Positions 2,630-22,220 of a stretch of 64,000 nucleotides of DNA are shown one piece after another. Position 1 is the first letter of the stretch. Each line of letters opens with the position of its first letter. The translations under genes and the position numbers were made by a program. Under the pieces are notes generated by a model. The model ran no database searches. It saw only the letters and a program-made list of their open reading frames with translations, and was not told the DNA's origin. Origin of the DNA: Olivibacter sp. SDN3 (GTDB lineage Bacteria > Bacteroidota > Bacteroidia > Sphingobacteriales > Sphingobacteriaceae). The stretch is taken from assembly GCF_014334135.1 (NCBI RefSeq), contig NZ_CP060497.1:1240001-1304000 (forward strand). Direction: 5' to 3'.

Positions 2630-5600
2630 TTAGCCCAACAGCCTTAACAAATCTTCCTTCGAAAGGTGCAGGGAAGATTGATCATCAGCTATCAACTCTT
2701 CTGACAAAGCTCTTTTCTTTTCCTGCAATTTCATCATCTTTTCCTCTACGGTATCCTTGCATACCAGTCGAACAGCGACTACATGCTTTGTTTGACCGAT
2801 ACGATGCACCCGGTCAATGGCCTGGTTCTCAACCGCTGGGTTCCACCAGGGATCCACCAAGTACACATAATCTGCGGCAGTGAGGTTCAAGCCTGTGCCA
2901 CCAGCTTTTAGGCTGATCAGAAAAACACGTTTTTGTGGTTCTGACTGGAATGTATCTACTACCTGTCCCCTGTTCCGGATACTTCCTGTAAGGTAGGCGT
3001 AACCAATATGACGGACGTCCAAACTTTTCTTGATGAGATCAAGCATGGTCACAAACTGGGAAAACACCAAGATCTTATGTTCGGGAGCCTTTTCCTCTAT
3101 TTGCGTCAGCAACGTATCAATCTTAGCCGATGAGTCCCCAGGTAGTCGTCCCTCCCCTAGCAAGATAGGAGAATCGCATATTTGACGCAAGCGCGTTAGC
3201 CCACGCAACACATTCATCGGACTTTTATCCAGCTCTTCATTGGTTGTCGCCGAAATATATTCGCGGAACTCTCTTTCATATGCTTTATAGATTCGTCTTT
3301 GCGTTGCATCCATTTCACAGTATAAAAGTACTTCCGTCTTCTCTGGCAACTCTTCGGCCACCTCACCTTTTCTTCGTCGAAGAATAAAAGGTTTAATCTT
3401 TCGCTGTAGCATATCCAGACGCTTCTTATCGTGAAACTGATCGATCGGCATCAGGTACACGTCCTTGAAATATTTTTTACTTCCGAGAAGACCCGGGCAA
3501 GCAAAAGAAAGCTGCCCATACAAATCAAACACATTGTTTTCCAAAGGCGTTCCCGTAATTGTCACCCTGTTTCGGGCCTTCAGCAATCTTGCCGCCCTAT
3601 AACGTTGCGATTCGGGGTTTTTAATTAGTTGTGATTCATCTAAAAAGACATAATCAAAGATAAATTCTTTCAGAAAAGCGATATCTGAAACCAAGGTACC
3701 ATAGGTGGTAAGCACAATATCCATGCTATTGAATCGCTTAGTCTGTTTATTCCTTTCCGTTCCATGGTGCATAAGTAAGTGAAGCGATGGCGCGAATTTA
3801 GTAAGTTCCTGTTTCCAGTGTGAAAGGAGCGTTGTCGGCACTACCAATAGGTGCGTTCTTTGTGCGTATTTCTCCTTTAGCCCCAAGATAAAGGCAATAA
3901 TCTGCAGTGATTTCCCCAAGCCCATATCATCTGCCAAACAGCCTCCAAAATTAAGGTCGTCCAAAAAGTTAAGCCACGCAAGCCCTTTCCGCTGGTAAGA
4001 TCGTAATGATGCTTTTAATGCCTTTGGCACAGCCACGTTCCAAGTGGTATCGAAATTTGCCAACCGCAGCTCATAAGCTTTTAAATCAATTTTCACTGTC
4101 TCATCCAACTGTTCTTCTTCAAATAATTCTTTGATAACAGCGAAATTGGTTTTTGCAATGCCTATCGCATCATCGTCCAATAGTTCCCCTATATTAAAAT
4201 ACGTATTGAACTTATTGATCCACTCTTGCGGTAACACACCTAAACTACCGTCATCTAGACGAACAAATTTCCGCTTATCGCGTATCGCCGTATGTAAATG
4301 CTTGAGGGAAGCCTTCGTTTTACCGTAACTCACCCCTACTTTCACATTAAACCAGTTCATCCCACTCAACACCCGGATGTTAATTTTTGCTTTATGTGGA
4401 TTGTAACGGTTACCTTCCAGCTCTTCGAAACCATAAATGGTTATCCCTTCGGCGAATAGCGTTTCGAACACCTCCAAGAACCAATCTTCATCCAAAAAGC
4501 GCTTTCGGTGCAGATAGAGGTAGTCCAGATCATTGGCTAGTTGCTCCTCGAAGTAAGCGTGCTGCCGAACAAGGCAAGCCATGAAGTCCGTCTCAAGTGC
4601 GTCGTTTCTTTTAATAAGAAACACTTCTCCATCATCATCCTCTCCGTGAATCTGCCTTCTACTACGCACAGCCACTTCCGCCTCTCCGTAACGCGCCACC
4701 GGTGTGATCGTTACATAATTGCCAAAGTCAGCAAGATAAATAATCTTTTCTACCGAAGTTCCAAACTTTGCTAATTGACGAGTTGTGGCTACTCGCGCAT
4801 ATTCGTACTGCAGCGTAATACGCTCTTCCAGCTTCTCTAGCAACTGTTTTCTAAAATCCAGATATTTGTTTTGATGGATCAACAGGTTTCCCGGCCTATT
4901 GGCGAAAAGCTTCAGCAGACCCAATATCCTCGGTTCGTCAACTAGATATAAGGTGTTTTCTACCCTCAGGAAATAATCAAAACACCATTCTAGCTCGTTA
5001 AGCATATAAGGTGTCCCGTCTATCATAATCGTAACTTCTAGCTCATAGAACACCCCTTTTCGGGCAATATTAAGCGTTATTTCTTTCGGCAACACCCTTG
5101 CCGTTACGGGTATAATAGAAGAGGCGTTTACTTTCTCAGAGAGACCTGAGTCGTGGTAATAAAAAGCATATTCCAAAGGATTCTGCACAAGGGCCCGCAG
5201 AGCATTCCCATCTATATGAGGCTCCTTTTTAGCTACAGGGTTTTGAAACTTATGAATTGCGGCAAAAAACTTCACCTGTTGCTGTCCTTCCATCGTCCAT
5301 ATTTCTTCCAAAGGATGGATGGGCCGAAAAGGGTTCTTTACTTTTCCTGTCTTTGTAGTCGGTGCTCGATAGAGCTCTACGATGAGATGGCGATAATATT
5401 TATGCCGTTTTAGGAGAATGATTGTCTGTTGATCAGCCATCGCTTTCGAAGAAAGATCTAGCTCAGTTGACGTCGGTTCCAGCCAAGATGTCCATTCTCG
5501 CAAGTTTTTTTCTGTAACAGGCACTAAAGACGATAGCGTTGGCACGATACGCAATTCACCTGCAGTATAATCTAGCTGAAAGAATCGGTCGAGCTGGTTT

Positions 5601-6016
5601 TCCTGTTCCAAACCATAATCAACAGCCTTTTCCCGCAATAGTTTCATCCTAAGTTGTTCATCAAAAAAGACACGGAAGGTCACCTTCTTAAGAACGGCGA
5701 AGAGCACTAAGAGCTCCTGCTCCGTCAGTTTTCCGTTTTCAGCATCATCGTAGCTACTAACCAGCAGCCCCTCCGCTGTTTGCTCGACGGATATCTCTGG
5801 AAAGTACACTCCATCTAATTTGCTTCCAAAAACACCAGATCCCAGCTTCAGGTTATTTGCTTGAACTTGCTGATCATCCGAGGGGTGCAGATATAACCCT
5901 GGAACAGCCAATTGAAATAACATCGTTTCCGAGAGTTGAGCGATCTGTAAGCCCTTCAGTTGCACTTTATGCCGTTTATGCACAGCTTCTTTCCGAACGT
6001 TAAGCTTATTATCCAT
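2630..6016 (-). CDS. SNF2-family DEAD/DEAH-box helicase, 1128 aa
   Basis: Superfamily 2 ATPase of the SNF2/RapA-like group, expected to translocate on double-stranded DNA and remodel protein-DNA complexes in the cytoplasm. The C-terminal half carries the motor: motif I ADDMGLGKS near residue 690, motif II DESQ near 794, motif III TGTPLENN shortly after, and motifs V-VI (GGTGLNLT, then QAIDRVHRIGQ) near 1042-1065. The N-terminal ~650 residues are the long beta-rich region usual for bacterial SNF2 proteins. I find no CxC...CxH SWIM finger in it, unlike the paralogue at 24657-28136. It stands alone between permeases and is convergent with the upstream one. The exact biological role is not deducible from the sequence. 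Confidence 0.92.
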   Translation of the reverse strand: MDNKLNVRKEAVHKRHKVQLKGLQIAQLSETMLFQLAVPGLYLHPSDDQQVQANNLKLGSGVFGSKLDGVYFPEISVEQTAEGLLVSSYDDAENGKLTEQELLVLFAVLKKVTFRVFFDEQLRMKLLREKAVDYGLEQENQLDRFFQLDYTAGELRIVPTLSSLVPVTEKNLREWTSWLEPTSTELDLSSKAMADQQTIILLKRHKYYRHLIVELYRAPTTKTGKVKNPFRPIHPLEEIWTMEGQQQVKFFAAIHKFQNPVAKKEPHIDGNALRALVQNPLEYAFYYHDSGLSEKVNASSIIPVTARVLPKEITLNIARKGVFYELEVTIMIDGTPYMLNELEWCFDYFLRVENTLYLVDEPRILGLLKLFANRPGNLLIHQNKYLDFRKQLLEKLEERITLQYEYARVATTRQLAKFGTSVEKIIYLADFGNYVTITPVARYGEAEVAVRSRRQIHGEDDDGEVFLIKRNDALETDFMACLVRQHAYFEEQLANDLDYLYLHRKRFLDEDWFLEVFETLFAEGITIYGFEELEGNRYNPHKAKINIRVLSGMNWFNVKVGVSYGKTKASLKHLHTAIRDKRKFVRLDDGSLGVLPQEWINKFNTYFNIGELLDDDAIGIAKTNFAVIKELFEEEQLDETVKIDLKAYELRLANFDTTWNVAVPKALKASLRSYQRKGLAWLNFLDDLNFGGCLADDMGLGKSLQIIAFILGLKEKYAQRTHLLVVPTTLLSHWKQELTKFAPSLHLLMHHGTERNKQTKRFNSMDIVLTTYGTLVSDIAFLKEFIFDYVFLDESQLIKNPESQRYRAARLLKARNRVTITGTPLENNVFDLYGQLSFACPGLLGSKKYFKDVYLMPIDQFHDKKRLDMLQRKIKPFILRRRKGEVAEELPEKTEVLLYCEMDATQRRIYKAYEREFREYISATTNEELDKSPMNVLRGLTRLRQICDSPILLGEGRLPGDSSAKIDTLLTQIEEKAPEHKILVFSQFVTMLDLIKKSLDVRHIGYAYLTGSIRNRGQVVDTFQSEPQKRVFLISLKAGGTGLNLTAADYVYLVDPWWNPAVENQAIDRVHRIGQTKHVVAVRLVCKDTVEEKMMKLQEKKRALSEELIADDQSSLHLSKEDLLRLLG

Positions 6017-6197: not shown

Positions 6198-6234
6198 TGT
6201 TCGGAATCGGACAAGTTGTGTTCGATTCCGAACA
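6198..6234. promoter_or_regulatory. Paired 16-bp palindromes, copy A (permease regulon operator)
   Basis: Two sites of the form TGTTCG-N4-CGAACA lie in tandem. The first, TGTTCGGAATCGGACA, is at 6198-6213 (11 of 12 arm bases match). The second, TGTTCGATTCCGAACA, is at 6219-6234 (perfect). Starts are 21 bp apart, two helical turns, so both sites face the same side of the DNA. The pair ends 115 bp before the permease start at 6349. The same 37-bp architecture recurs at four other permease runs in the window. Binding by a dimeric activator is inferred from this architecture. Confidence 0.75.
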
Positions 6235-6289
6235 TAATCGCACACCATAAAAACGATAAACCACTTATATACAATCAATTAAAAACAAA

Positions 6290-6302
6290 GGATGTTTTTT
6301 GA
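6290..6302 (+). promoter_or_regulatory. Weak candidate -24/-12 promoter for permease run A
   Basis: A GG at 6290-6291 lies 56 bp downstream of operator copy A, the same offset as in the other copies. It is followed by TTTTTTGATAG, but the G of the -12 element is one base closer than the sigma-54 rule requires, and the C is missing. It is supported by position only. Confidence 0.25.
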
Positions 6303-6348
6303 TAGATGAAAGGATAATTTTTGGTTTTTATTCCACAACACGTTTCTT

Positions 6349-8784
6349 ATGCTGAAGAACAACCTACTGTTAGCATTACGCCATTTCTGGAAGAATAAGG
6401 TTTCTGGCATTATTAATATCCTCGGCCTAGCCATAGGTGTCAGTGCAGCTTTGGTCATCTACCTTATCATTCAATACGAGTATAGCTACGAAAAAGATCT
6501 TGTACATAGCGATCGGATATATCGGGTTGTCACCAACAGTGAATGGAAGAACAGCGGCGTCCGTGCACCATTGCCTCGTTTAATAAAAAGTCAGGTAAGT
6601 GGCGTCGAAGCGGTAGCACATTATATTCAGGATGATTGGCAAAACACCATCAAAATACCCAGCAATGATGGTAAACAACATAAACTATTTAAAAAAGAAA
6701 GCGGCATTATCTTTTCTGATGCGGACTATTTCAAAGTCGTTCCCCATCAATGGTTAGCAGGCAATGCACAACAGGCATTGGCCGCACCTTTACAATTGGT
6801 GTTATCGGAAAGCAAAATTCAAACTTTTTTCCCCGGTCTTCATCCTGATGAAGTTATCGGTAAAACCGTTATTTTCAAAGACAGTCTCTATACCACGATT
6901 GCCGGTGTTGTTAAAGACCGGGAAGCCAACACTGATTTTAACAACCAACTATTTATTTCCCTAGCTACCGTAACTAGTAATACTGGGCTCAAGGAACTTT
7001 TCAATTACGATGCCTGGAATAACGTCAATGATAATTCCCAGTGTCTGCTATTATTAAATCCTACGGCAGAAGCAAGTCGGGTCAACCAACAGATAGACGA
7101 TATTTATGCTCGGGTAGCTCAAGCGGAAAAAGACGAATCCAAAGACGCCCACTGGTTACAGCCCTTGGCAGATATTCATTTTAACAAAGCCTTTTCCGGC
7201 GGAGGGAGATATATCGAAAAATCTACCTTGCTGAATCTGTTCCTTTTGGCTATCTTCCTGATTTTACTGGGAGCCATCAATTTCATCAACTTATCCACCG
7301 CCCAATCCATCGAAAGGGCGAAGGAGGTGGGCATACGCAAAACACTGGGCAGCGGCAAAAAGACGCTTATTATCCAATTTCTACTGGAAACATTTACGCT
7401 TACGATAACCGCCTGCATCATTTCCGTGATCATCGCCCCATTACTTTTTAGAGCATTTTCCGGTTTTATTCCGGCAAGCATGTCTTTTGGAGATATCTTT
7501 CAGGTAGACATTTTTTTATTTCTAATCCTTTTATCTTTCGGCATTACTTTTTTGGCCGGTTTTTACCCCGCTTGGGTATTAACGGCATACAAACCCGTTT
7601 CGGCTATTAAAAACCAGGTCAGTGATCATAGTAAGCAAACGCGATCGGCGTGGGTACGTAAAATGCTCATTACCTCGCAGTTCGTCATCGCGCAGGTTTT
7701 TCTGATCTGTGTGCTCATCGTAAGTAAGCAGATAAACTTTGCCAAAGACAAGGATATGGGCTTTCGAAAAGAGGCGATTATCAATTTTTACATACCCGAC
7801 TTTTCGAACCGCCAAAATAGTCAAAAATTCGTTTTGCTGAACGAGTTAAAAAATATCGCCGAAATTGAAGCGGTTAGCCTAGGAAATCACAGTCCTGCTT
7901 TTAGCGGCAATATGTCCAATGGTCTTAGTTATATGGTGGGCGATGAGAAAGTCGAAGTCTCCATCGATTCAAGATATGGTGATACCAGTTATTTACAGGT
8001 TTATAACATCCCGCTTTTGGCAGGTCGGAATATCCGATTGGCGGATTCTACATACGAAGTACTCATTAACGAATCCATGATGAAACAGATGGGTTTTCAG
8101 CGCCCTGAGGAGGCCCTCGGGCACACCTTAGATTTTTACGATGAGGATTCGCCTATTGTGGGGGTAATGAGAGACTTCAATATAGCCTCGGTCAGAACGC
8201 CTGTAAAACCGCTGATCTACTGGGGAGAAAAAAATGACGGCTATGTAATGCATGTTGCCTTACAGGCAAATAATCCTTCTTCCTGGAAAAAAGCGCTGGA
8301 CAAGCTGCAAGCTTCCTGGAATAAAGTATACCCTGACTATGAGCTGGACTATACCTTTCTAGATAAGACCATCGAAAATTTTTACCAAAACGACGTCCGT
8401 TTATCCAACCTGCTCAACTGGGCAATGGGACTTTCCATCGGTATTGCCGCAATGGGTCTGTTCGGGTTAGGCGTTTTCACGGCCAATCAGCGAACGAAGG
8501 AGATCGGCATAAGGAAAGTTTTGGGAGCCCATGTCGGTCAGATCGTCTTTTTATTGTTGAAAAACTTACTTGCCTTGGTCGTGCTGGCCTGTTTGATTGC
8601 TTTTCCTATTGCCGGTTATTTCATGCATCAATGGTTGGAAAATTTCCACTTCCGGACAGCTATAAGTTGGTGGATCTTTGCGGTGTCAGCAATAGGCATG
8701 TTAAGCTTTGCAGCAGTTGTTTTAGGGATAAAAGCTTTTCGGGCGGCATCGGCCAATCCGGTGGATTCGCTAAGGGATGAGTGA
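6349..8784 (+). CDS. ABC3-type permease, 811 aa (first gene of run A)
   Basis: Eight-helix double FtsX/MacB permease without its own ATPase. Coupling motifs are EVGIRKTLGSG near residue 321 and EIGIRKVLGAH near 713. The tail ANPVDSLRDE ends the protein. It begins MLKNNLLLALRHFWKNK, which lacks the WRN signature of most paralogues (LRHFW instead). This start shape is shared with the gene at 13859 (LRHLWRN), and both are the first genes after a palindrome pair. It is followed after 70 bp by the next permease, so 6349, 8855 and 11319 probably form one transcript under operator copy A. Substrate unknown. Confidence 0.93.
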   Translation: MLKNNLLLALRHFWKNKVSGIINILGLAIGVSAALVIYLIIQYEYSYEKDLVHSDRIYRVVTNSEWKNSGVRAPLPRLIKSQVSGVEAVAHYIQDDWQNTIKIPSNDGKQHKLFKKESGIIFSDADYFKVVPHQWLAGNAQQALAAPLQLVLSESKIQTFFPGLHPDEVIGKTVIFKDSLYTTIAGVVKDREANTDFNNQLFISLATVTSNTGLKELFNYDAWNNVNDNSQCLLLLNPTAEASRVNQQIDDIYARVAQAEKDESKDAHWLQPLADIHFNKAFSGGGRYIEKSTLLNLFLLAIFLILLGAINFINLSTAQSIERAKEVGIRKTLGSGKKTLIIQFLLETFTLTITACIISVIIAPLLFRAFSGFIPASMSFGDIFQVDIFLFLILLSFGITFLAGFYPAWVLTAYKPVSAIKNQVSDHSKQTRSAWVRKMLITSQFVIAQVFLICVLIVSKQINFAKDKDMGFRKEAIINFYIPDFSNRQNSQKFVLLNELKNIAEIEAVSLGNHSPAFSGNMSNGLSYMVGDEKVEVSIDSRYGDTSYLQVYNIPLLAGRNIRLADSTYEVLINESMMKQMGFQRPEEALGHTLDFYDEDSPIVGVMRDFNIASVRTPVKPLIYWGEKNDGYVMHVALQANNPSSWKKALDKLQASWNKVYPDYELDYTFLDKTIENFYQNDVRLSNLLNWAMGLSIGIAAMGLFGLGVFTANQRTKEIGIRKVLGAHVGQIVFLLLKNLLALVVLACLIAFPIAGYFMHQWLENFHFRTAISWWIFAVSAIGMLSFAAVVLGIKAFRAASANPVDSLRDE

Positions 8785-8854
8785 TAATCATTTGTTTTTG
8801 CGTTGCCTGCATATGTAGATTCAGCTCGTACACAAGGCTTATAATTTAACAAAA

Positions 8855-11278
8855 ATGATAAAGAACTATTTCAAAATCGCCTGGCGGAATATGCGCAAGC
8901 ATAAAACACATACCATTATCAATATACTGGGCTTAGCCATTGCTTTCATCTGCAGTATCCTTTTACTGCTATCGGTATACCATGAATTTTCATTTGATAA
9001 TTTTCATCAACATAAAGACCGTGTGTTTAAGCTTTATCAATTCGATAACTTATTAAAAGGTACAGACCTAAGCCCTGCCATGGGCTACCCGGTTGCCACT
9101 TATCTAGCCAAGGAGGATATCGGTATAGAAAAAGTTACACGCATAAAATCGGGAGGCCGCGAAATCCGCTATAAAGCGAAGTCGCTCGACGTGGGCACCA
9201 CCTTGGTAGATCCGGATTTCTTCGACATCTTCTCTTTTAACATAACAGCCGGCCAAGGTCAATCGCCTTTAGGGAAGCTAGAAGATGTTGTAATCAATCA
9301 ACAAACTGCCAATAGCTTGTTTGCTAAGGAAAACCCGATCGGTAAGGCCGTCGAAATTAAAATAGCGGGCGAATGGAAACGCCTCATTGTATCGGCTGTT
9401 ATGGCGGATGCACCAACAAATTCCACTTTTAAATTTTCGGCTTTAGCGCGAACGGAGATAGACCCAAATTGGGTCAGAACCAAAGCAGAATGGTATGAGC
9501 GACATCACAATATTTATGTACGGCTCGCTCCTCATGTAAGCCAAGTACAGGTAGAAAAACAGTTAAGACTATTTTTCCAAAAGCACGTACATCCTGATGC
9601 TGAATCTTTAAAAAGAGACGGCTATCTAGCGGATGCCAATGGCGATTATTTGGGTATGCGATTACTTTCACTTAAAGATTTACATTTTAACAGTGAGCTG
9701 GGATCTGGTGACACGGTTAGCAAAACGTATTTGTTTATTCTCTTCCTCGTTAGTGTCATTATTTTGTTTATCGCATGCTTCAACTATATCAACATACAGA
9801 TCAGTTTATCCTTTACGCGTAATAAAGAATTAGGCGTTAGGAAATGTTTAGGCGCTGCTTCACATCAAGTATGGGGACAGTTGTTTTCGGAAAATTTTCT
9901 ACAAATTTTCATTGCGCTGTGTTTAGGCTTGATAGGTACGTTCACTTTAATCAAAATACTGGTACTTCACAACCTTCTGCAGTTGGATAGTCAATCACTT
10001 TACCATCCGCAGACGCTCATTAGCTTATTCGCTATCCTAATCTTCATTTCGCTCGCGTCCTCCAGTTATCCCTTTTTCGTTTTAAATAAGCTAAAAACCA
10101 CCGAAATATTTAAAGGGAAATTCAGCCTCATCAAATCTGGAATCGGTAGAAATACGCTCATCACTTTACAATTTATTACCGCAATTATCCTGATCTGCTC
10201 AACACTTGTCTGTTATCTGCAGTTTCAGCATTTGCGAACAGCCCAATTGGGATATAACACCGCTTCGATCATCAGCATTCCCATAAAAGATGCAGTGAAT
10301 GGCCGGTCTATCAGTGCCAAACTACGCACTCGCTTGACTTCTAATCCGGCTGTCATAAGCGTATCGGGAGGCGATGTGAACCTCGGAATCGGAGAAGATG
10401 GAGGTACTTCCAGGTCGCAGGTTGGTTTTAAACACGAAGGCAGAAATATACAGACCTCTTTTATTTCGGCCGACTATGATTTTCTAAAAACGCTTTCTAT
10501 TACACCCTTGGAAGGTCGGGATTTTTCAACCGCTTTTGTTTCGGATAGTACATATGCAGTCGTTATTACCCAAAGCATGGCGAAACAACTGGGCAAACCA
10601 CCTCTACTTGGGCGCCTTATTAACACGGATTCAACAGGCCGTTATGGCTGGCAAATCATCGGCATCATTCCCGATTTTCACCTCTACTCGATGCACGAAG
10701 AGACCAAACCGCTTACCATTGTACTGGAACAGGACACCCCTATTGATTATATTTTTGTGAAGGTAAATACGCAAAATCCGCAGGTGACTATGGAGCAGAT
10801 AAAAAGGACATATACAAGCTTGGAGCCTGATGCGGAATTTAAAGGAACCTATGTAGATGAAAATGTCGAGCGTTGGTATAAAAATGAAAAACGTTTAGCC
10901 ACACTTTTTTCTGTAGCTGCCGGAATTGCCATTTTGCTATCTTGCATGGGGTTATTTGGTTTAGCACTCACTATCATCAATCAGCAAGTAAAAGAGATCG
11001 GCATCCGGAAAGTGTTAGGCGCGTCCATTGCCCAAATTGCAAATAAAGTCATTCAGGAATTTCTTAAACCAGTTTTTGTTGCTTTTCTAATTGCAGGCCC
11101 AATTGCCTGGTGGATCATGAATAGCTGGTTGGAAGATTTTATATATCGGATCACTATACCCCTTTGGATTTTTCCTTTATCGGGCTTAATTGCGCTGTTA
11201 ATAGCCTTGCTGACAGTGGGCATTCAATCATTGAAAGCGGCGAGGGCCAACCCAGTAGATAGCTTGAGGAGTGAATGA
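8855..11278 (+). CDS. ABC3-type permease, 807 aa (second gene of run A)
   Basis: Double FtsX/MacB permease with N-terminus MIKNYFKIAWRNMRKHK. The coupling motifs are ELGVRKCLGAA near residue 322 and EIGIRKVLGAS near 708. The stretch after the second motif (QIANKVIQEFLK) lacks the LLSKDF sequence found in most paralogues, so the end that contacts the ATPase is divergent. The tail is ANPVDSLRSE. It is flanked by permeases at gaps of 70 and 40 bp, consistent with co-transcription. Periplasmic domain 1 is glycine-poor and about 240 residues long. No substrate can be read from the sequence. Confidence 0.93.
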   Translation: MIKNYFKIAWRNMRKHKTHTIINILGLAIAFICSILLLLSVYHEFSFDNFHQHKDRVFKLYQFDNLLKGTDLSPAMGYPVATYLAKEDIGIEKVTRIKSGGREIRYKAKSLDVGTTLVDPDFFDIFSFNITAGQGQSPLGKLEDVVINQQTANSLFAKENPIGKAVEIKIAGEWKRLIVSAVMADAPTNSTFKFSALARTEIDPNWVRTKAEWYERHHNIYVRLAPHVSQVQVEKQLRLFFQKHVHPDAESLKRDGYLADANGDYLGMRLLSLKDLHFNSELGSGDTVSKTYLFILFLVSVIILFIACFNYINIQISLSFTRNKELGVRKCLGAASHQVWGQLFSENFLQIFIALCLGLIGTFTLIKILVLHNLLQLDSQSLYHPQTLISLFAILIFISLASSSYPFFVLNKLKTTEIFKGKFSLIKSGIGRNTLITLQFITAIILICSTLVCYLQFQHLRTAQLGYNTASIISIPIKDAVNGRSISAKLRTRLTSNPAVISVSGGDVNLGIGEDGGTSRSQVGFKHEGRNIQTSFISADYDFLKTLSITPLEGRDFSTAFVSDSTYAVVITQSMAKQLGKPPLLGRLINTDSTGRYGWQIIGIIPDFHLYSMHEETKPLTIVLEQDTPIDYIFVKVNTQNPQVTMEQIKRTYTSLEPDAEFKGTYVDENVERWYKNEKRLATLFSVAAGIAILLSCMGLFGLALTIINQQVKEIGIRKVLGASIAQIANKVIQEFLKPVFVAFLIAGPIAWWIMNSWLEDFIYRITIPLWIFPLSGLIALLIALLTVGIQSLKAARANPVDSLRSE

Positions 11279-11318
11279 TGAATGCGGATAGCTTAAACAC
11301 CAATGAAAAACAAACACA

Positions 11319-13703
11319 ATGTTTAAAAATTATCTTAAAATCGCTTGGCGGAATCTCTTAAAGCAAAAAAAATCATCTGCGATCAATATTATCGGTCTAG
11401 CCCTGGGTATGGCGGTTTTTATACTTATCGCTTTATGGGTTTGGGATGAACTGACATTTAACCGATTTCATGAAAATGATGATCGTGTTGGCCAGATTGT
11501 GCAAAATCAAACATGGAACGGACAAACAGGCACGTCATTAGCACAACCTGTCCCACTGGGAAATGAATTGCGTACCACCTACGGAGAATACTTCAAGTAT
11601 GTTGCGATGGCATCTTGGATGATTCCACAGGTTTTGTCCTATGATGACAAACATCTTTATCAAAACGGCGTCTTCACTGAAAAAGACGGCCCTCATATCC
11701 TGTCCTTAAAAATGCTTCGCGGCAACCGAAATGCGTTACAAGATCCGAAAAGCATAATGCTCTCTGAATCCACGGCAAAAGCTTTTTTCGGCGACACCGA
11801 TCCGATCGACAAACCAATGAAGATCAAGAAGTCACTCGATGTTAAGGTTGCTGCCGTTTATGAAGATTTACCTTACAACACGTCATTCAGGGAACTTGAC
11901 TTTATCGCCCCTTGGGAGTTATACCTCATCTCAGAACCTTGGATCAAGCAGGTGGAGACCGCTTGGGATGATAACTCCTTCCAAACATTTGTGCAAATAA
12001 GTGACCATACCAATTTTGAAACCGTTAACAAGGCCATCGTAAATGCAAAATTTAATCGCGTCTCAGCAGCTGATAAACGGTTTAAGGCACAGATCATCGT
12101 ACACCCAATGCAGGACTGGCACCTATGGAACGACTGGAAAGACGGCAAGGTAGTGGGCGGCTTAATTTCATATGTTAAACTTTTTGCGCTGATCGGCTTT
12201 TTTGTCTTGTTGCTTGCCTGCATCAACTTCATGAACTTGAGTACTGCCCGATCTGAAAAAAGAGCGAAGGAGGTGGGCGTAAGAAAAACGGTAGGTTCGT
12301 CCAAAAAGAGCCTCGTTTATCAATTTCTAACGGAGTCGATACTCGTTTCCGTTATCGGCTTCGGCTTCTCCATACTGTTGGTCGTCCTATCACTTCCTTG
12401 GTTTAACGAAATTTCAAATAAACAAATCGTATTTCCTTGGAATTCCTTGATGTTCTGGGCTATAGCCACTCTCATCACCGGAACCACCGGCATTGTTGCC
12501 GGTAGTTATCCTGCTTTCTATCTTTCCTCATTCAAGCCTTTAAAAGTGTTAAAGGGTACATTCAAAGTTGGAAGGCTGTCAACCCTACCCCGAAAAATAC
12601 TGGTAACCGTACAGTTTTCAATCTCCATTGCACTTATCATCGGAACCATTATTGTTTACAAACAAATACACTATACTAAAGATCGACCCATTGGATACGA
12701 TCGCGGCGGTTTGGTAACGATCAGAATGGCCACGGCGGATTTCTACGGAAAATATGACGTTTTAAGAGAAAAACTCAAGAATTTACGCGCGATCGAAGAA
12801 TTGTCTGAATCGTCCAGCCCATTAACAAGCGTCCAATCCAACCGTAGTGGCTTTGAGTGGGACGGAAAAGACCCCGATCTCGCCACTGATTTTGCTACCA
12901 TCTGGGTGACTCATGAATTTGGGAAAACCGTGAATTGGGAAGTAAAAAAAGGTAGGGATTTTTCGAGAGACTTTGCTACAGACACCAATGCCATGATCAT
13001 CAACCAAGCTGCTGTCAAGTACATGAATATAGATGAACCTGTTGGCAAAACAGTTCATTTCAACGACAAGCAATACCAGATTGTCGGCGTCATACAGGAC
13101 GTTATCATGGATTCGCCCTACGAGGCAGCGAAACAAACGGTTTACTGCATTGATTACGAAAATGTCAATTGGATCAACCTAAAACTAAATCCGGAAAGAG
13201 GCACGCATGCCAGCATGCAGGATATCGAATCGGTTTTCAAATCAGTGATTCCTGACGCACCTTTCGAGTATAAATTTGTTGACGACGAGTATGAGGCGAA
13301 GTTCAGAGAGGAAGTTCGTATCGGAAAGCTCGCCTCTGTGTTCTCTGGTTTAGCCATCGTCATCAGTTGCCTAGGTGTATTTGGCTTAGCTTCCTTTGTT
13401 GCAGAAAAACGTGCTAAAGAGATCGGCATCCGAAAAATAATTGGCGCTAGCTTATATCAACTCTGGGGTTTACTCTCCAAAGAGTTTGTCTTTTTGGTGA
13501 TTCTTTCCTGCTTCATTGCCATGCCTATCGCCTATTACATACTGCATGACTGGCTTCAGAAATACAGCTACCGCGCATCAATACCTTGGTGGGTTTTCGC
13601 TGTTTCCGCCATCGGAAGCCTGCTGTTGACGATCATTATTGTAAGTTTCCAAACGATGAAAGCCGCGAGAGCCAATCCGGTGGATTCGCTCAGGGACGAG
13701 TAA
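11319..13703 (+). CDS. ABC3-type permease, 794 aa (third gene of run A)
   Basis: Double FtsX/MacB permease of a distinct subtype. It shares with the genes at 37724 and 55619 an N-terminus ending WVWDELTFNRF or similar, a periplasmic domain 1 with LYQNGVF followed by the LSLKMLRG-type segment, and a second domain with the motif DSPYEAAKQTVY (SPY in all three). The coupling motifs are EVGVRKTVGSS near residue 313 and EIGIRKIIGAS near 694. The tail is ANPVDSLRDE. It ends run A and is followed directly by operator copy B. The recurrence of this subtype at the end of runs A, C and E suggests a fixed pairing between two permease types, which is an inference. Confidence 0.93.
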   Translation: MFKNYLKIAWRNLLKQKKSSAINIIGLALGMAVFILIALWVWDELTFNRFHENDDRVGQIVQNQTWNGQTGTSLAQPVPLGNELRTTYGEYFKYVAMASWMIPQVLSYDDKHLYQNGVFTEKDGPHILSLKMLRGNRNALQDPKSIMLSESTAKAFFGDTDPIDKPMKIKKSLDVKVAAVYEDLPYNTSFRELDFIAPWELYLISEPWIKQVETAWDDNSFQTFVQISDHTNFETVNKAIVNAKFNRVSAADKRFKAQIIVHPMQDWHLWNDWKDGKVVGGLISYVKLFALIGFFVLLLACINFMNLSTARSEKRAKEVGVRKTVGSSKKSLVYQFLTESILVSVIGFGFSILLVVLSLPWFNEISNKQIVFPWNSLMFWAIATLITGTTGIVAGSYPAFYLSSFKPLKVLKGTFKVGRLSTLPRKILVTVQFSISIALIIGTIIVYKQIHYTKDRPIGYDRGGLVTIRMATADFYGKYDVLREKLKNLRAIEELSESSSPLTSVQSNRSGFEWDGKDPDLATDFATIWVTHEFGKTVNWEVKKGRDFSRDFATDTNAMIINQAAVKYMNIDEPVGKTVHFNDKQYQIVGVIQDVIMDSPYEAAKQTVYCIDYENVNWINLKLNPERGTHASMQDIESVFKSVIPDAPFEYKFVDDEYEAKFREEVRIGKLASVFSGLAIVISCLGVFGLASFVAEKRAKEIGIRKIIGASLYQLWGLLSKEFVFLVILSCFIAMPIAYYILHDWLQKYSYRASIPWWVFAVSAIGSLLLTIIIVSFQTMKAARANPVDSLRDE

Positions 13704-13711: not shown

Positions 13712-13748
13712 TGTCCGCAATTGAACGGTTGGTGTCCGATTCCGAACA
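13712..13748. promoter_or_regulatory. Paired 16-bp palindromes, copy B
   Basis: The first site, TGTCCGCAATTGAACG at 13712-13727, matches 9 of 12 arm bases. The second, TGTCCGATTCCGAACA at 13733-13748, matches 11 of 12. Starts are 21 bp apart, as in the other copies. The pair begins only 9 bp after the stop of the previous permease and ends 111 bp before the next start (13859). A separate promoter therefore seems to divide runs A and B although both read the same way. Confidence 0.7.
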
Positions 13749-13801
13749 CTGTCATTGGAAGCAAAAACATAACAAACAGTTAATCAGCGCTATAAGTTTC
13801 T

Positions 13802-13814
13802 GGCGCATTTGCTG
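13802..13814 (+). promoter_or_regulatory. Candidate -24/-12 promoter for permease run B
   Basis: TGGCGC has its GG at 13802-13803, 54 bp past operator copy B. The -24 half is close to the sigma-54 consensus. At the -12 position there is GT instead of GC. Use would start transcription near 13827, giving a leader of about 32 nt. Confidence 0.35.
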
Positions 13815-13858
13815 TTAAGCGTCATACGTGACATAGTCAAGAATAAATACCTATCTTA

Positions 13859-16267
13859 ATGAAACAGTTTTACATCACCTTACGTCACCTATGGCGGAAC
13901 CGATTATTTACCGGACTAAACATTTTAGGTTTAGCCATCGGTATTAGCGCCTCGTGGATTATTTACCAGATGGTTAGCTTTGAATTTAGCTATGATCAAC
14001 ACCAACCTGATCGTGATCGGATATTCCAGTTCTATGCGCATATGAAGAGGGGTGACGGTGAAAGTCGGGAGGAGATCTTCATTCCCAAAGCCATTCTTCC
14101 CCATGTGCTGCATGACATTAGCGGCATCGAAAAAACCGCTCCTTTATATTACCGGAATTATTCCAGTGCTAAAACAAGTGATGGCCGTACGTTAGACCAA
14201 CTCGACGAGCAGGTGGCGACCCTACCGGACTATTTTGAGATGATCGGCTATCAATGGTTGGCGGGAAACCCACGGCAAGCCATCGCTTCCGATAAGGTGG
14301 TGTTAACAGCTAAACGGGCGCAACGTTACTTCCCCGGAAAAAGTCCGGAGACCATGATCGGGCAGACCATTACCTATAATGACACCGTGCAGAAAACCGT
14401 CAGTGGCATTTTAGTCGATCTGGATTACTTGAACAGTTTTCCCCCACAGGAATTTTTTGCGCTCAACCAGGAAGAGCTAACAAATACGAACTGGCAACAC
14501 GTTTCATCCGAAGAATTGCTATATGTCAAATTGGAAAAGGGCGTGAGCACCAAGACCGTCCTCGATCAATTGAATCGAATCAATAGCGCCGTTAATCGGG
14601 AGATTTTTCAACAGTATAATTTTACTTCCAGTTTTAAACTGCTCCCCTTGGCCGATAAACATTTTGCTACGCATTTGAGTCTCCGTGCCCGAACAGCCAG
14701 CAAGCCGATATTATTTGGCTTATTGGGCATTGCGGCTTTCCTTTTGGTCTTGGCCTGCATTAACTATATTAACCTCACTACCGCGCAATTGCCCCAACGC
14801 GCCAAAGAAATCGGTATTCGTAAAACCTTAGGTGGAAAAGCTTCAGCTCTTATTTGGGCTTACCTGAAAGAAACCCTCGTCCTCTGTATCTTAGCTGTTA
14901 TTTTATCCTTTCTGATCACGGCAGTTGCCCTACGTGTCTTTGCCGAATACCTACCCGAAGGCATGAACGATTTCAACAATTATATGGAGATGCTACTCTT
15001 TACGGTATTGTTGATTAGCGGAATCACCCTAATAGCAGGGCTTTATCCGAGTTGGCTGGCCACGCGTGTACAGACCGTACGCGTATTGAAAGGCCAAGTA
15101 AGCCAATCGGTCGGTGCTTACCAACTGAATTTGCGCAAGGGACTTATTATCTTTCAGTTTGTAATCGCACAAGTGTTCGTGGTATGCGCCATCATCATTG
15201 GTCAGCAACTAAGATATACGTTAGATAAAGATTTAGGCTTTCAGCATGAAGCGATTGTGACGGTGGATATTCCCTACAAAGTACAAACAGACAGCAGCTA
15301 TCAGGGGAAACAATTTGTTTTAAAACGTATGCTTGAACAGCATCCTGAAATTGACGGTGTAGCATTGGGCGACATCCCGATGAGCAATTGGATGAACGGA
15401 TGGATGATGGATTATCGTAGCGATACGGGCACCGTGGAGAAGCAGCTCTTATTCAAAAATATTGATGCCAACTATCTGAAGGTGTATCAAATTCCGTTGC
15501 TCGCCGGTCGGAATATACTGGAAACAGACACCATTCGGGAGCTATTGATTAATGAGACGGCACTGAAAAATTTTGGTTTTAGCAGGCCAGAGGATGCTAT
15601 TGGACAAACCCTTTATCAAAATGACAATCCACGCATCATCGTAGGTGTATTCAAAGATTTTCATCAATTTAGTTTAAGAAATGAGATTCCAGCGCTCGGT
15701 TTTACCGCTGTTAAGCCCGAGCTGGAATCATTTAACGTCAAGCTGGCCAGTAAAAGACTTTCATCTTGGGCAAGCACCATTGCCCTTGTGGAAAAGGAAT
15801 GGAAACGCGTGTATCCAGGCGTTGATTTTCAATATCAGTTTTACGATGAGACTATTCGCGATCTTTACCAACAGGAACGCCGTACTGCCAAATTGGTAAC
15901 GACCGCCACAATGATCACCTTATTGATCAGTTGCCTAGGCCTATACGGCTTAGCTACCTTAACGGCTTTCCAACGAACGAAGGAAATAGGTATCCGAAAA
16001 GTATTGGGCGCTACGATAAGCAGTGTTATTGCGCTATTATCAAAGGATTTTGTTAAGCTAGTGCTGTTAGCATTGCTTATAGCCGCACCGATTGCCTGGT
16101 GGGCGATGAACAAATGGTTGGAAAATTTCGCCTATAAAATTGAAATCCAGTGGTGGATGTTTACGTTGGCCGGCTTTGGGGCCGTTATGATTGCCTTACT
16201 AACTGTTGGCTTCCAAGCAGTCAAAGCGGCCATTGCAAATCCAGTGGATTCGTTGCGGGATGAGTAA
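13859..16267 (+). CDS. ABC3-type permease, 802 aa (first gene of run B)
   Basis: Double FtsX/MacB permease with N-terminus MKQFYITLRHLWRN. The coupling motifs are EIGIRKTLGGK near residue 309 and EIGIRKVLGAT near 704. The segment after the second motif (LLSKDFVKLVLLA) is nearly the same as in the gene at 16304, and the last ~100 residues of these two neighbours are strongly alike. That points to a shared recent origin or gene conversion at the 3' ends. The tail is ANPVDSLRDE. It is followed by the next permease after 36 bp, so the two are likely co-transcribed from the operator copy B promoter. Confidence 0.93.
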   Translation: MKQFYITLRHLWRNRLFTGLNILGLAIGISASWIIYQMVSFEFSYDQHQPDRDRIFQFYAHMKRGDGESREEIFIPKAILPHVLHDISGIEKTAPLYYRNYSSAKTSDGRTLDQLDEQVATLPDYFEMIGYQWLAGNPRQAIASDKVVLTAKRAQRYFPGKSPETMIGQTITYNDTVQKTVSGILVDLDYLNSFPPQEFFALNQEELTNTNWQHVSSEELLYVKLEKGVSTKTVLDQLNRINSAVNREIFQQYNFTSSFKLLPLADKHFATHLSLRARTASKPILFGLLGIAAFLLVLACINYINLTTAQLPQRAKEIGIRKTLGGKASALIWAYLKETLVLCILAVILSFLITAVALRVFAEYLPEGMNDFNNYMEMLLFTVLLISGITLIAGLYPSWLATRVQTVRVLKGQVSQSVGAYQLNLRKGLIIFQFVIAQVFVVCAIIIGQQLRYTLDKDLGFQHEAIVTVDIPYKVQTDSSYQGKQFVLKRMLEQHPEIDGVALGDIPMSNWMNGWMMDYRSDTGTVEKQLLFKNIDANYLKVYQIPLLAGRNILETDTIRELLINETALKNFGFSRPEDAIGQTLYQNDNPRIIVGVFKDFHQFSLRNEIPALGFTAVKPELESFNVKLASKRLSSWASTIALVEKEWKRVYPGVDFQYQFYDETIRDLYQQERRTAKLVTTATMITLLISCLGLYGLATLTAFQRTKEIGIRKVLGATISSVIALLSKDFVKLVLLALLIAAPIAWWAMNKWLENFAYKIEIQWWMFTLAGFGAVMIALLTVGFQAVKAAIANPVDSLRDE

Positions 16268-16303
16268 AATTAATAGAGGATCTTTGACCAGAAATTAATA
16301 GCC

Positions 16304-18736
16304 ATGTTAGTAACCCACTTCAAAACAGCTCTTCGCTCCTTGCAAAAAAATCGACTGTTCAGTTTCATTAACATAATGGGGCTTACCGTAGGATTATGCG
16401 CTTGCCTGCTCGTTTCCACTGTAGCACTGGACGACCTGTCATACGACGATTTTTGGAAACGAAGTGACGACCTCTATCGTGTTTTTTCTTCCAATAAAAT
16501 GGGTGATGACCTCTATGTAGAAGAAGCCTACACACCCATAGGTTTAGGAACCGAACTCAAAGAACGTTTTCCAGAAGTAGAAAACTTTTCAAAAGTTCAC
16601 ACATCCGAATTACAGCTCAAACCAAGTGACAATGCGTCTAATGGTATAAAGACTAGTATAATCGCCTTGGATTCCAATGCTGTAAGGATGTTTGATTTCG
16701 ATCGCTTATCCGGACAATTGGATCGCTATGTACCCGGTCAACAAAATCTATTGATCACGGAAAGTTTTGCTAAACGGTTCTTTAAAGAAGAAGACCCCAT
16801 TGGCAAAGTCATCTACGACGTACCAACTTGGCAGGACCAACCAACACCCTATCTGGTTACCGCTGTTATCCGAGATCTTCCCCAAAATACACACTTAAGA
16901 GCCGATGCCATTGTGCTTATGGAGCCTAGGGTAGAAAGAATTGAAAAGAACCGAGGGACTAGCAACTCACAGGTTTATTACCTCCTGAAACCCGGCGCAA
17001 ATCGTCAGCAATTCGAAGCAAAAGTAAACAATTGGTACGCTAAACACCTCGACCTCGAAGAAGGCAAGGTCATATTTTCCTTCCAGCCCATGCGCGATAT
17101 CTATTTGCATTCGGCTTTTAATAACCATCAGGAAATCAAATCGAGTATTCGGTCTGTATATATTTTCGGCAGTGTTGGTATTTTTCTCTTGCTGATTGCC
17201 TGCATCAATTTTATCAATATGAGCACCGCTCGCGCGACGCAACGCCTTAAGGAAAGCGGCATTCGAAAAATTCTTGGCGCGGAAAGAAGGCAGCTCATGG
17301 GACAGTTTTTAACAGAATCCTTACTCTTTTTTTCACTTTCTACACTACTTGCACTGCTCCTTTACGCGCTGTCCTTACCTATACTGGAACGGTTTTTAGA
17401 TCATGGACTCACCAAAACCGTTTTCGCCAATTGGCCCTTCTTCCTTAGTACCTTGCTTTTTATCTTCTTGTTGAGCCTGCTCACGGGGGCCTACCCTGCG
17501 ATACTCCTATCCGGATTCAAGCCATCGAACAGTCTACGGGGTCGTTTTGTCAATTCCTCCTTAACATCGTCGGCCGCATTTCGAAGAATATTAGTCGTCA
17601 CCCAGTTTTCCATAGCTATCATCACTTTGGTAGCCTTATTAGCTGTTCAATCGCAACTGCGTTTTATCAATCAAAAAGATCTCGGTTTTAACAAGGAGGG
17701 TTTATTGTACATTGATATGGTTTCCTGGGAAGGAAAGGGAGAGACCATTAAGGAAAAATTAAAACAATTACCGGGTGTATTACAAGCTAGTATTACAAGC
17801 TGGGTACCTCAAAGCGGAATGACTTCCGGAAATATGAGCTTCGAGCATCCTGTAAAAAAAGGGCAACAAACACAGGTCAACTTTATTTTTGGAGATCTCG
17901 ACTTTGGACAAACCATCGGATTAAAGCTAAAAAGCGGCCGTATGTTCGACCGGAATTTTGGAACTGATTTGCAAAACACCTTACAAAGGGAGTCGGATTC
18001 TACAAAAAAAGAAGATCGTGCGAAGTTACGGCCAATAATGATATCCGAATCTACTGCCAAAGAGTACGGTATTGATGAGGCCGGTGGTCGTATTACTTCA
18101 ACAGATTATCATGTTGTTGGAATTATTCAAGACTTTCATTACGAATCGTTACATCACAGCCTTACTCCTGCCATTATCGAAGCTGGAGGAGCTGCTGGTT
18201 TCGGTGGAATGTTCATTCGGATAAACTCAGGCCAAGAACAACAGGTATCGATCGCTTTACACAAAATATGGAGGTCTATTTATCAGGATAAATTACTGAA
18301 CACCAACTGGATGAGTGATATTCTTGAGAAACAATATGCTAAAGAGCAAAAGCAACAGACCTTATTTACTTTCTTTAGTGCCCTGATGTTATTCATTTCT
18401 TCCTTAGGCGTTTTCGGACTGGTATTGCATGCAGCAGAACAACGTGTGAAAGAAATCGGCATACGCAAAGTGTTGGGAGCGAGCGTTAGTAGCATTATCA
18501 ACCTGCTATCTAAAGATTTTGTGAAGCTGGTGCTATTGGCTATTGTCCTTGCATCACCGATTGCTTGGTGGGCAATGAATAAATGGCTGGAAGATTTCGC
18601 GTATCGCATTGATTTGCAATGGTGGATGTTTATTACAGCAGGGGGAGCTGCGCTGTTTATCGCCTTAACTACGATAAGTGGGCAAGCCTTCAAAGCCGCT
18701 ACAGCAAATCCTGTCGATAGTTTATGGGATGAATAA
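16304..18736 (+). CDS. ABC3-type permease, 810 aa (second gene of run B)
   Basis: Double FtsX/MacB permease beginning MLVTHFKTALRSLQKN. The coupling motifs are ESGIRKILGAE near residue 312 (G-I-R-K kept, the preceding I replaced by S) and EIGIRKVLGAS near 711. The tail reads ANPVDSLWDE, with W in place of the usual R. Periplasmic domain 2 carries an extra charged insert around the stretch QRESDSTKKEDRAK, which the paralogues lack. It is the last permease before the accessory island, and I see no clear terminator in the 140 bp downstream. Confidence 0.93.
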   Translation: MLVTHFKTALRSLQKNRLFSFINIMGLTVGLCACLLVSTVALDDLSYDDFWKRSDDLYRVFSSNKMGDDLYVEEAYTPIGLGTELKERFPEVENFSKVHTSELQLKPSDNASNGIKTSIIALDSNAVRMFDFDRLSGQLDRYVPGQQNLLITESFAKRFFKEEDPIGKVIYDVPTWQDQPTPYLVTAVIRDLPQNTHLRADAIVLMEPRVERIEKNRGTSNSQVYYLLKPGANRQQFEAKVNNWYAKHLDLEEGKVIFSFQPMRDIYLHSAFNNHQEIKSSIRSVYIFGSVGIFLLLIACINFINMSTARATQRLKESGIRKILGAERRQLMGQFLTESLLFFSLSTLLALLLYALSLPILERFLDHGLTKTVFANWPFFLSTLLFIFLLSLLTGAYPAILLSGFKPSNSLRGRFVNSSLTSSAAFRRILVVTQFSIAIITLVALLAVQSQLRFINQKDLGFNKEGLLYIDMVSWEGKGETIKEKLKQLPGVLQASITSWVPQSGMTSGNMSFEHPVKKGQQTQVNFIFGDLDFGQTIGLKLKSGRMFDRNFGTDLQNTLQRESDSTKKEDRAKLRPIMISESTAKEYGIDEAGGRITSTDYHVVGIIQDFHYESLHHSLTPAIIEAGGAAGFGGMFIRINSGQEQQVSIALHKIWRSIYQDKLLNTNWMSDILEKQYAKEQKQQTLFTFFSALMLFISSLGVFGLVLHAAEQRVKEIGIRKVLGASVSSIINLLSKDFVKLVLLAIVLASPIAWWAMNKWLEDFAYRIDLQWWMFITAGGAALFIALTTISGQAFKAATANPVDSLWDE

Positions 18737-20100: not shown

Positions 20101-21867
20101 TTACACATTAGGTTCGGGCTCTTTCGTGTTATCTTCCACCTTCTCCGCCTTATTCTTTAACTCCTCCAATACCTCCTCACACAGCCCGTCAAAAAAACGA
20201 AGTAAATCTTTTGCTTGATCGCAATAAAACGATTGTGAAGTTTTCGATAAGCCGATCGTTGCGTTTTCCCACCAAATACTTTCAGGTCTAAACATCAGGT
20301 GCAAGCGTGCCCTGTCCGTTTCGCTTTTAGGGTAAATGAAGTCCAACACTCTCCTGCCGGTTATTCCACTCCAATCGATCAGTTCAGTTAAATGCACCTG
20401 TCTCGGCAAATAGCCTACCGCACATTGCAAATAAGTATGGACACCCATTTCCAATAAATCCTTCAACAATAACATGCCGGTATCGAGCATCAAATTTGGC
20501 GTTTGTACCACCACTTCTTTCAGGTTGCTCATACAGCCCCTTGCGTTTTCCCACAGGTTTTTTACCCGCTCATATTCCGCCTTCCAGTCCACTTCGGTCA
20601 CCGTAAATGAAGGGGTAAAAATCGATTTCCTACGCAAAACCCGGCCTTTTGTCCAAAGCGTATGCACAAAACGATCGCCTTCGGAGAGCTTCTTCTTCAC
20701 GTATTCCACATTCAGGTACACTACTAGGGCACTGGCGACTCCCGCCTGTACACGTTTAAAGCGGAAGGGTCCTTTATTCTTCATCAGAACCACTAAGTAA
20801 AGCTCGACTTTGGCGCCTTGCTCTTTATTCCCATCTGGTTGCTGAAACAGGTTGCTCCCAGAAAAACCCCCGGTATGGTAGTTCAACATCATAATCTGCT
20901 CAGGATTGTGCTTTTGGCGAAAAGAGTTCAATAAGCTATTGACATCCTGCTTATAGGAATCCGGCCATGGGAAACCGGAAAAATCTTCGCATACTAGCTG
21001 CGAAGGCGACGGGTTAGTGTCTATCGCCAGTACAGGTGCCTTCTCTCCTTTCACATCCCCGCTCAGCTTAACCTCATCCGCCAGCTGCTCCCGATAAGCT
21101 GCAATCCGCTCCATCATGGTCGCCACCATGCTGTCGAGCATCGCACTTGCTTGCTCACACTTTTCCAAAAGGAGACTAAATTGATCTGTCGTAATCTCCA
21201 CTATATCCATCTTTTTTCCCTTCACATAGCTTTCGTCCAAAAGGCGAAATAGATCAACCGATGGACTGTCATAGGGGAAAATGGACAATATTTGCGGAGC
21301 CAAAGCCCTGAGCGATTTCATCAGGTATTCCACGTTATGCGATTTACCTCCATTTACACCGGCAGTAGCTTGAAAACCTTTCAATCGGACCGCTAAGAAT
21401 TGATGCAGCATAAAGGTTGCTTGTCCATAGTCCCTTTTGATGACGAAGTTGTTCACCGCCTCCCTGAATTCGTCGGAAGTTTTCCGACATTTCCCATAGT
21501 TCAGTTGGGAAAGTTCCAGCAAACCCGTGATGGTCTTATGTGATAAGAGCGGACTTTTTTTCTTCGATGCCGCAAACAGTTCATGTTGGGGCAAGGAAGC
21601 ATAGGTGTAGTACAAACTGCCTTGCTTCAATTGATTTTGCCATTCCCCCGCCAGTATCATATCAAAGGGAACCTCCGTCGTATCCGACATACACAGGGAT
21701 ACAATAGGCGCCATAGCCTTGGGTGACAGCCCCTTGACTGGATTGATCACCAATAAAAGATGATGCTGTTCTTCTTCTAAAAAGGGATAAGAAAAAAGAA
21801 AAACACGATGTAAGTCCATGCGCTGAACCAAGCGTCCAACAAGCGTTTGTGTAGCTAATGTTTTCAT
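20101..21867 (-). CDS. HEPN-domain protein with degenerate N-terminal nucleotidyltransferase-like domain, 588 aa
   Basis: A large cytoplasmic protein with a HEPN-like four-helix domain at about residues 140-235. Its pattern there (FMLHQFLAVRL, then SHNVEYLM, then DLFRLLDESYVKGK) is the usual one for HEPN proteins of Bacteroidota. The first ~110 residues have the alternating strand/helix look of a minimal nucleotidyltransferase but lack the GS-X10-DxD motif. The C-terminal ~120 residues (about 455-570) again look helical and HEPN-like (LLLKDLLEMGVHTYLQ). No clear RX4-6H RNase motif is visible, so a binding or regulatory role is as likely as RNA cleavage. An inverted repeat overlaps its promoter, suggesting autoregulation. 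The domain calls rest on visual pattern matching. Confidence 0.75.
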   Translation of the reverse strand: MKTLATQTLVGRLVQRMDLHRVFLFSYPFLEEEQHHLLLVINPVKGLSPKAMAPIVSLCMSDTTEVPFDMILAGEWQNQLKQGSLYYTYASLPQHELFAASKKKSPLLSHKTITGLLELSQLNYGKCRKTSDEFREAVNNFVIKRDYGQATFMLHQFLAVRLKGFQATAGVNGGKSHNVEYLMKSLRALAPQILSIFPYDSPSVDLFRLLDESYVKGKKMDIVEITTDQFSLLLEKCEQASAMLDSMVATMMERIAAYREQLADEVKLSGDVKGEKAPVLAIDTNPSPSQLVCEDFSGFPWPDSYKQDVNSLLNSFRQKHNPEQIMMLNYHTGGFSGSNLFQQPDGNKEQGAKVELYLVVLMKNKGPFRFKRVQAGVASALVVYLNVEYVKKKLSEGDRFVHTLWTKGRVLRRKSIFTPSFTVTEVDWKAEYERVKNLWENARGCMSNLKEVVVQTPNLMLDTGMLLLKDLLEMGVHTYLQCAVGYLPRQVHLTELIDWSGITGRRVLDFIYPKSETDRARLHLMFRPESIWWENATIGLSKTSQSFYCDQAKDLLRFFDGLCEEVLEELKNKAEKVEDNTKEPEPNV

Positions 21868-21898
21868 ATAAAGTTAATTAATGTACAGAAAATCTATA

Positions 21899-21929
21899 CA
21901 AACTTAAACGTATTGTTTTGAAAAACAAA
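21899..21929 (-). promoter_or_regulatory. Bacteroidota-type promoter of the HEPN gene
   Basis: Read on the - strand there is TTTG (complement of 21926-21929), then 19 bases, then TAAGTTTG (complement of 21899-21906). This matches the -33/-7 arrangement TTTG-N19-TAnnTTTG known for Bacteroidota housekeeping promoters. It lies 32-62 bp upstream of the start codon at 21867. The -33 element falls inside the inverted repeat at 21924-21964. Confidence 0.6.
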
Positions 21930-21964
21930 ATATTTGTATATTTTTTCTGTACAAATATTTTGTT
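21924..21964. repeat. 15-bp perfect inverted repeat over the HEPN promoter
   Basis: The arm AACAAAATATTTGTA at 21924-21938 is the exact reverse complement of 21950-21964, with an 11-nt spacer. A second, imperfect pairing links 21887-21907 (GTACAGAAAA...ATACAAA) with 21932-21952, so the same half-site recurs three times. It is a probable operator, because it covers the -33 element of the HEPN gene promoter. Confidence 0.6.
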
Positions 21965-22200: not shown

Positions 22201-22220
22201 TATATAAATCAGATTGGCTC

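Follow-up and report, generated by a model that had tools for sequence, protein, structure and literature searches.

The window analysed here comprises 64,000 nucleotides of Olivibacter sp. SDN3 and corresponds to positions 1240001-1304000 of the one contig (6,118,654 bp) that was scanned as the whole genome; positions up to 64,000 refer to the window, larger ones to the contig. Ten half-sites of the form TGTTCG-N4-CGAACA are combined into five 37-bp pairs in the window, all at the positions reported in an initial annotation. These predicted enhancer pairs, recognised by pattern scans and compared with shuffles, lie on the plus strand, as do the permease genes and the sigma-54-like elements behind them. 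The pair at 6198-6234 heads three permease genes in 6349-13703 (6349-8784, 8855-11278 and 11319-13703; identified from ORFs, Pfam for the first and our own HMM for all). Its sigma-54-like element (6288-6303) is located 53 bp after the pair and is the weakest of 22, with a score of 8.0 out of 14 and an inner spacing one base off. The pair at 13712-13748 heads two permease genes in 13859-18736 (13859-16267 and 16304-18736; Pfam for the first, own HMM for both), with a sigma-54-like element at 13801-13816 (score 10.0). The third pair (31111-31147) and its element (31201-31216, score 9.5) precede a permease run (31388-40087; ORFs, Pfam, own HMM), which consists of one gene in two pieces (31388-31846 and 33327-35228) followed by the genes 35252-37648 and 37724-40087. 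A DDE transposase gene on the minus strand (31820-33115) splits the first permease gene of this run (31388-35228), which still has its pair upstream.

The pair at 52854-52890, with an element at 52945-52960 (score 9.5), heads two permease genes in 53169-58015 (53169-55559 and 55619-58015; Pfam for the first, own HMM for both), and the pair at 58174-58210, with an element at 58265-58280 (score 9.5), heads two further permease genes in 58290-63225 (58290-60779 and 60835-63225) plus an ABC ATPase gene (63330-63995), all in 58290-63995 and assigned with Pfam. A sixth pair spans window positions -35 to +1, so that only its last base was visible to the initial annotation; it lies ahead of the first permease gene (81-2498; Pfam, genome scan, own HMM) and has a sigma-54-like element at 54-69 (score 11.0). 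MacB_PCD and FtsX domains are present according to Pfam searches with eight permease ORFs of the window.

Two long SNF2-type helicase genes (2630-6016 and 24657-28136) are situated amid the permease runs. A HEPN-domain gene (20101-21867, minus strand) and a PIN-domain gene (22453-22884, plus strand) form a stretch at 20101-22884 that is possibly a toxin-antitoxin or defence neighbourhood. The window also contains a second two-component system (46562-48357), composed of a His_kinase and a LytTR response regulator, beside a gene whose product contains CarboxypepD_reg and Plug domains.

Geometry and uniqueness of the pairs

Arm matches to the consensus were re-counted and agree with the initial annotation, with 11 and 12, 9 and 11, 8 and 10, 9 and 12, and 12 and 10 matches out of 12 for the five pairs in order. 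A degenerate pair pattern (at most 3 mismatches) retrieves exactly these five pairs and none elsewhere in the window, as had been noted, and each of the five permease runs beginning in the window is headed by one pair (5/5). A chance origin of the pairs is rejected, as 100 dinucleotide shuffles of the window contain 0 pairs of the degenerate pattern, and shuffles of the relatives' named regulator loci contain 3 pairs in 3.4 Mb versus 60 in 0.69 Mb of the real sequences. A LexA-type box was likewise rejected because its geometry is different.

The distance of 21 bp between the starts of the two sites holds for 23 of the 25 pairs with a matrix score of at least 18 (409 kb scanned); the earlier statement that it is exact does not, with one pair of 20 bp and another of 22 bp. 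The 60 pairs found in 53 named loci of relatives have start distances of 21 bp (39 pairs), 22 bp (20) and 30 bp (one).

Distribution of the pairs in the genome

A strict pair pattern occurs at 8 places in the whole genome and the degenerate pattern at 23, with 0 matches of the reversed-pattern control in either case. The pair matrix, used with a threshold of 18, included 19 of the 22 gene-heading pairs, and the pair at 6198-6234 has the highest matrix score of the genome (43.5). A MacB_PCD search of the whole genome yielded 26 long permease genes, including the one that the transposase interrupts, and five single-unit MacB genes. An HMM of seven window permeases recovers 25 of the 26 long genes; the one missed, and therefore not counted in the transcription units, encodes an 844-aa MacB_PCD protein (3834678-3837212) and has no pair. 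Same-strand permeases not more than 80 bp apart were combined into such units, with the piece behind the transposase counted with its gene, which results in 18 units. All 18 units (25 genes) of this double FtsX/MacB permease subfamily possess an upstream pair, with 60-278 bp between the end of the pair and the called permease start, and 0/5 of the single-unit MacB loci do. The prediction that a genome scan would place the pairs ahead of FtsX/MacB permeases is borne out for the double-length units. Three of the 18 unit pairs fall outside the matrix, namely 2439903 (starts 20 apart), 3241723 and 3660793 (starts 22 apart), and the latter two were detected only by inspection of the DNA upstream of permease genes.

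Four non-permease genes also possess a pair together with the promoter: HlyD (1208740), OEP (1306606), GH95 (3603278-3605506) and DUF2807 (5496908). The resulting 22 gene-heading pairs are found between called ORFs in 21 cases, and one (3587774) overlaps a called ORF of 95 aa on the opposite strand. Of the 23 places from the degenerate scan, 19 precede a gene and show the sigma-54-like element at the fixed distance (15 permease units, HlyD, OEP, GH95 and DUF2807); the other four do not. The place 5014762 is located within an ORF and receives no support from the matrix. Three further matrix hits fall outside these 22 pairs: 2421610 (within a called ORF), 2489094 (preceding a 466-aa AAT/TPR gene) and 3197901 (within an ORF, score 22). 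The pairs at 2421610-2421646 and 2489094-2489130 (L036 and L037) are good ones, agree in an unusual second site, are followed by similar DNA and do not stand ahead of permeases; they represent a duplicated stretch, and by eye no obvious sigma-54 element is present at the expected distance behind either.

A predicted sigma-54 promoter behind the pairs

Sigma-54 promoters possess GG and GC dinucleotides 12 bp apart at -24/-12 (TGGCAC-N5-TTGC). A de novo motif search in the 120 bp that follow each of the 22 pairs, without any position or sequence prior, returned wwTGGCAT-n5-TTG with a log-likelihood ratio of 97.5; the opposite flank of the pairs reached 62.3, and four shuffles reached 48-55 (60 seeds, versus 120 for the real set). 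The best sites of this motif begin 49-53 bp behind the pair in 16 of 22 cases and elsewhere in six. Scored with a sigma-54 consensus (maximum 14), the best fit within 49-56 bp is found at 51-55 bp in all 22 cases, some of them weak, and in 20 of these no position in the 120 bp fits better. The fits average 10.6, against a largest value of 8.2 in 2000 circular shifts. Individual scores range from 8.0 to 13.0, the weakest ones, including 6288 and the HlyD promoter, being one base short inside, and several window promoters are weak (8.0-10.0). RpoN is encoded in the genome (Sigma54_DBD, 6.8e-56, at 357039).

For 29 loci from other genomes, the best sigma-54 fit is located 51-54 bp (4 loci) or 62-64 bp (25 loci) behind the pair. 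The 62-64 bp cluster was noticed post hoc, after the preset range of 47-58 bp had failed with 5/29 loci scoring at least 9.5; a control on the opposite flank, covering 47-58 bp only, gave 2/29. Compared with the 51-55 bp of Olivibacter sp. SDN3, the 62-64 bp of these loci (L108-L114 and L116-L133) amount to a shift of roughly one turn of the helix, as would be expected if the helix face mattered.

A candidate NtrC-type regulator and the adjoining kinase

The initial annotation had proposed a search for an NtrC-like response regulator near the pairs, and one is encoded beside the HlyD pair, approximately 31.6 kb before the window on the minus strand (1207081-1208424). It contains the Pfam domains Response_reg (4.2e-21), Sigma54_activat (7.8e-64) and HTH_8 (2.1e-13). 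HlyD and the regulator gene are divergent, with the HlyD pair between them, and this arrangement recurs in relatives. The adjoining histidine kinase gene (1205762-1207081) shows HATPase_c (3.9e-21) and a PAS_8 match; the two TM-like segments of the kinase, with about six residues between them, suggest that the signal is perceived at or within the membrane. The genome encodes four more full-length sigma-54 activators; none of them has a pair in its vicinity, and their recognition helices differ from that of the regulator family, which reads LTRTALYRR, LTRAALYRR or a close form.

The sigma-54 contact loop is GAFTDA instead of GAFTGA, here and in 69 of the 72 readable members of the family (L048-L133; 7 of 79 loci gave no match to the loop pattern). 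The three GAFTGA members (L064, L066 and L098) all belong to the 13 named loci without a pair.

Conservation in relatives

Judged by the regulator, the closest named relatives are two Olivibacter species (85% identity). A pair is present at 40 of the 53 named regulator loci, and all 59 pairs with a distance of 20-22 bp at these loci are situated within 450 bp of the start of HlyD, OEP, a permease or the regulator. The fetched stretches of the remaining 13 loci, seven from Parapedobacter plus L060, L064, L066, L092, L098 and L099, contain no pair. Two gene orders occur in relatives: the pair separates either the regulator from HlyD or, ahead of the regulator, HlyD from OEP.

In the order, the strict pair is present in 57 of 121 genomes (reversed control 0 in all) and a close regulator also in 57, and both occur together in only 17; 40 genomes possess the pair only and 40 the regulator only. 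One pair locus per genome was fetched for 29 of the 56 other genomes with a strict pair: 24 loci, all of genus g3, have the regulator and HlyD on either side, and five have a permease. The poor coincidence (17/121) is mostly explained by a more distant regulator in g3 and a drifted element in g4, as the 24 pair loci of g3 lie beside a regulator of 45-51% identity, and the stretches before close regulators (L152-L191, mainly g4) have as their best match in 34 of 40 cases a drifted form beginning with GTATC. The drifted element reads GTATC...CCG.ACA / TGTAAC...GCGTACG and keeps distance and promoter, the best sigma-54 fit being located 51-53 bp on in 32 of the 34 stretches; only 1/40 of the stretches clears the matrix threshold of 18. 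In these loci, the regulator may have changed along with its site. Genomes of genus g2 display the strict pair in 14/14 cases with the close regulator and in 0/6 without it.

The congener G016 possesses nine strict pairs, all of them (9/9) just ahead of permease matches; searches for the regulator (best activator 38% identity) and for HlyD found neither gene. Either a stretch is missing from the draft or the regulator is really lost, in which case another regulator would be needed there; G016 remains an exception. In the phylum, 14 of 296 genomes contain the strict pair (control 0). Fourteen loci were fetched, 12 of the 14 from outside the own family; at 13 the pair is flanked by regulator, HlyD, OEP or a permease gene, and none of these was found at L194.

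Interpretation

A single NtrC-type regulator very probably docks at the pairs and, with sigma-54 polymerase, would jointly turn on a whole set of ABC exporter parts here and in many relatives. We regard it as highly probable, and as the best explanation of the sequences, that the pair is an NtrC-family enhancer and that the regulator 1207081-1208424 governs a sigma-54 exporter regulon. Each 37-bp element would then be a pair of upstream activator sites for this regulator. From the observed elements and their places, the fixed-distance sigma-54-like promoter, the regulator gene alongside and the conservation of the arrangement, we infer that upon a signal two regulator dimers would occupy the two palindromes, which are spaced by two turns of the helix, and assemble into an active AAA+ ring, which would touch sigma-54 RNA polymerase about 50 bp on at the TGGCAT-N5-TTG promoter and open it. 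The HlyD adaptor, ABC ATPases, the OEP outer-membrane channel and the 18 dispersed double-permease operons would be turned on as one exporter regulon. The earlier reading of the two-turn spacing as typical of NtrC-like activators is well supported, since a sigma-54 promoter follows the 22 pairs, an NtrC-type regulator is encoded beside one of them and the loci of relatives agree (29/29 in the order, 13/14 in the phylum). The further claim of one regulator for dispersed ABC permeases gains support from the 18/18 units, the adjacent regulator and the promoter, and is too narrow in that HlyD, OEP, GH95 and DUF2807 are not permeases.

Three other explanations were weighed. The window encodes a LytTR response regulator and a LysR protein, and one of these, another regulator or a repressor could bind the pair, the NtrC-type gene being a mere neighbour; the nine strict pairs of G016, where the close regulator was not found, would fit. 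We consider this improbable, because the fixed-distance sigma-54 promoter behind the pair calls for an NtrC-type activator; moreover, the pair tracks the NtrC-type regulator across two gene orders and in 20/20 g2 genomes is either accompanied by it or absent. The same tracking in relatives makes the LytTR and LysR proteins of the window unlikely regulators. That the pairs are leftovers of duplication, carried along with the permeases without regulatory meaning, is the least probable of the three, a very slight chance: the permeases are indeed paralogues, but the flanking DNA has diverged while arms, spacing and promoter element have been kept, and the same layout recurs at the unrelated genes HlyD, OEP, GH95 and DUF2807 and, elsewhere in the phylum, at loci of other families.

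The remaining explanation retains the NtrC-type regulator at the pair and, owing to GAFTDA, has it act other than through sigma-54 in the usual manner, as a repressor or with another form of polymerase. The loop is GAFTDA in nearly all readable family members, and a paper on Dickeya does not decide whether sigma-54 contact is lost with GAFTDA (PMC10714721). Against this stand the sigma-54-like element at fixed distance behind the pairs of the own genome and of relatives, and a Desulfovibrio study, which counts GAFTDA as one of the variants expected to remain active and assigns targets to such a protein (PMC4641369); we judge this explanation slightly less probable still than binding by a different regulator.

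Relation to known systems

Activators of the NtrC/PspF type bind two palindromes on one helix face about 100 bp before the start, near a gene for an AAA+ activator with a Fis-type HTH. The elements described here resemble such sites, with paired palindromes in the same layout and an adjacent activator gene, and differ in their own sequence TGTTCG-N4-CGAACA, in many dispersed targets, mostly permeases, and in the GAFTDA loop. Tripartite exporters of the MacAB-TolC type consist of an HlyD adaptor, an ABC ATPase, a MacB_PCD/FtsX permease and an OEP channel. All four components are found here; in contrast to MacAB-TolC, the permeases are double-length, numerous and scattered, and mostly have no ATPase gene in their unit, as read in the stretches inspected.

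A 2025 paper predicts that sigma-54 controls COG0577/FtsX-like permeases in Bacteroidia and terms this first evidence (PMC12316311); promoter class, permease family and bacterial class are the same as here. The passages of that paper on these permeases name no enhancer, regulator or regulon, for which candidates are given here. Its activator filter, as described there, retains only sequences with GAFTGA, so GAFTDA members may have been dropped. The two-component activators described in the relevant part of the Desulfovibrio vulgaris study are comparable as response regulators with predicted sigma-54 targets including transport, and differ in belonging to other bacteria with other regulons; GAFTDA is reported there for one single-component activator, DVU2106 (PMC4641369). 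No paper naming the enhancer or the regulator was found in our search of the open-licence literature. Mechanisms of this kind are known; regulon, enhancer and regulator appear to be new.

A large and poorly understood class of Bacteroidota ABC permeases thus gains a candidate two-component system, an enhancer sequence and a full regulon, and a common function becomes testable by deletion of one regulator. More tentatively, and with rather less than even confidence, one GAFTDA-class activator may command a modular exporter with a single HlyD, few ATPases, one channel and about 25 interchangeable, scattered double permeases, a growing set which new copies would join through the enhancer-promoter cassette they carry; this would be an envelope response across the phylum Bacteroidota, its regulator missed by GAFTGA-only surveys. 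The regulon proposed here also points to GAFTDA activators as candidate working partners of sigma-54.
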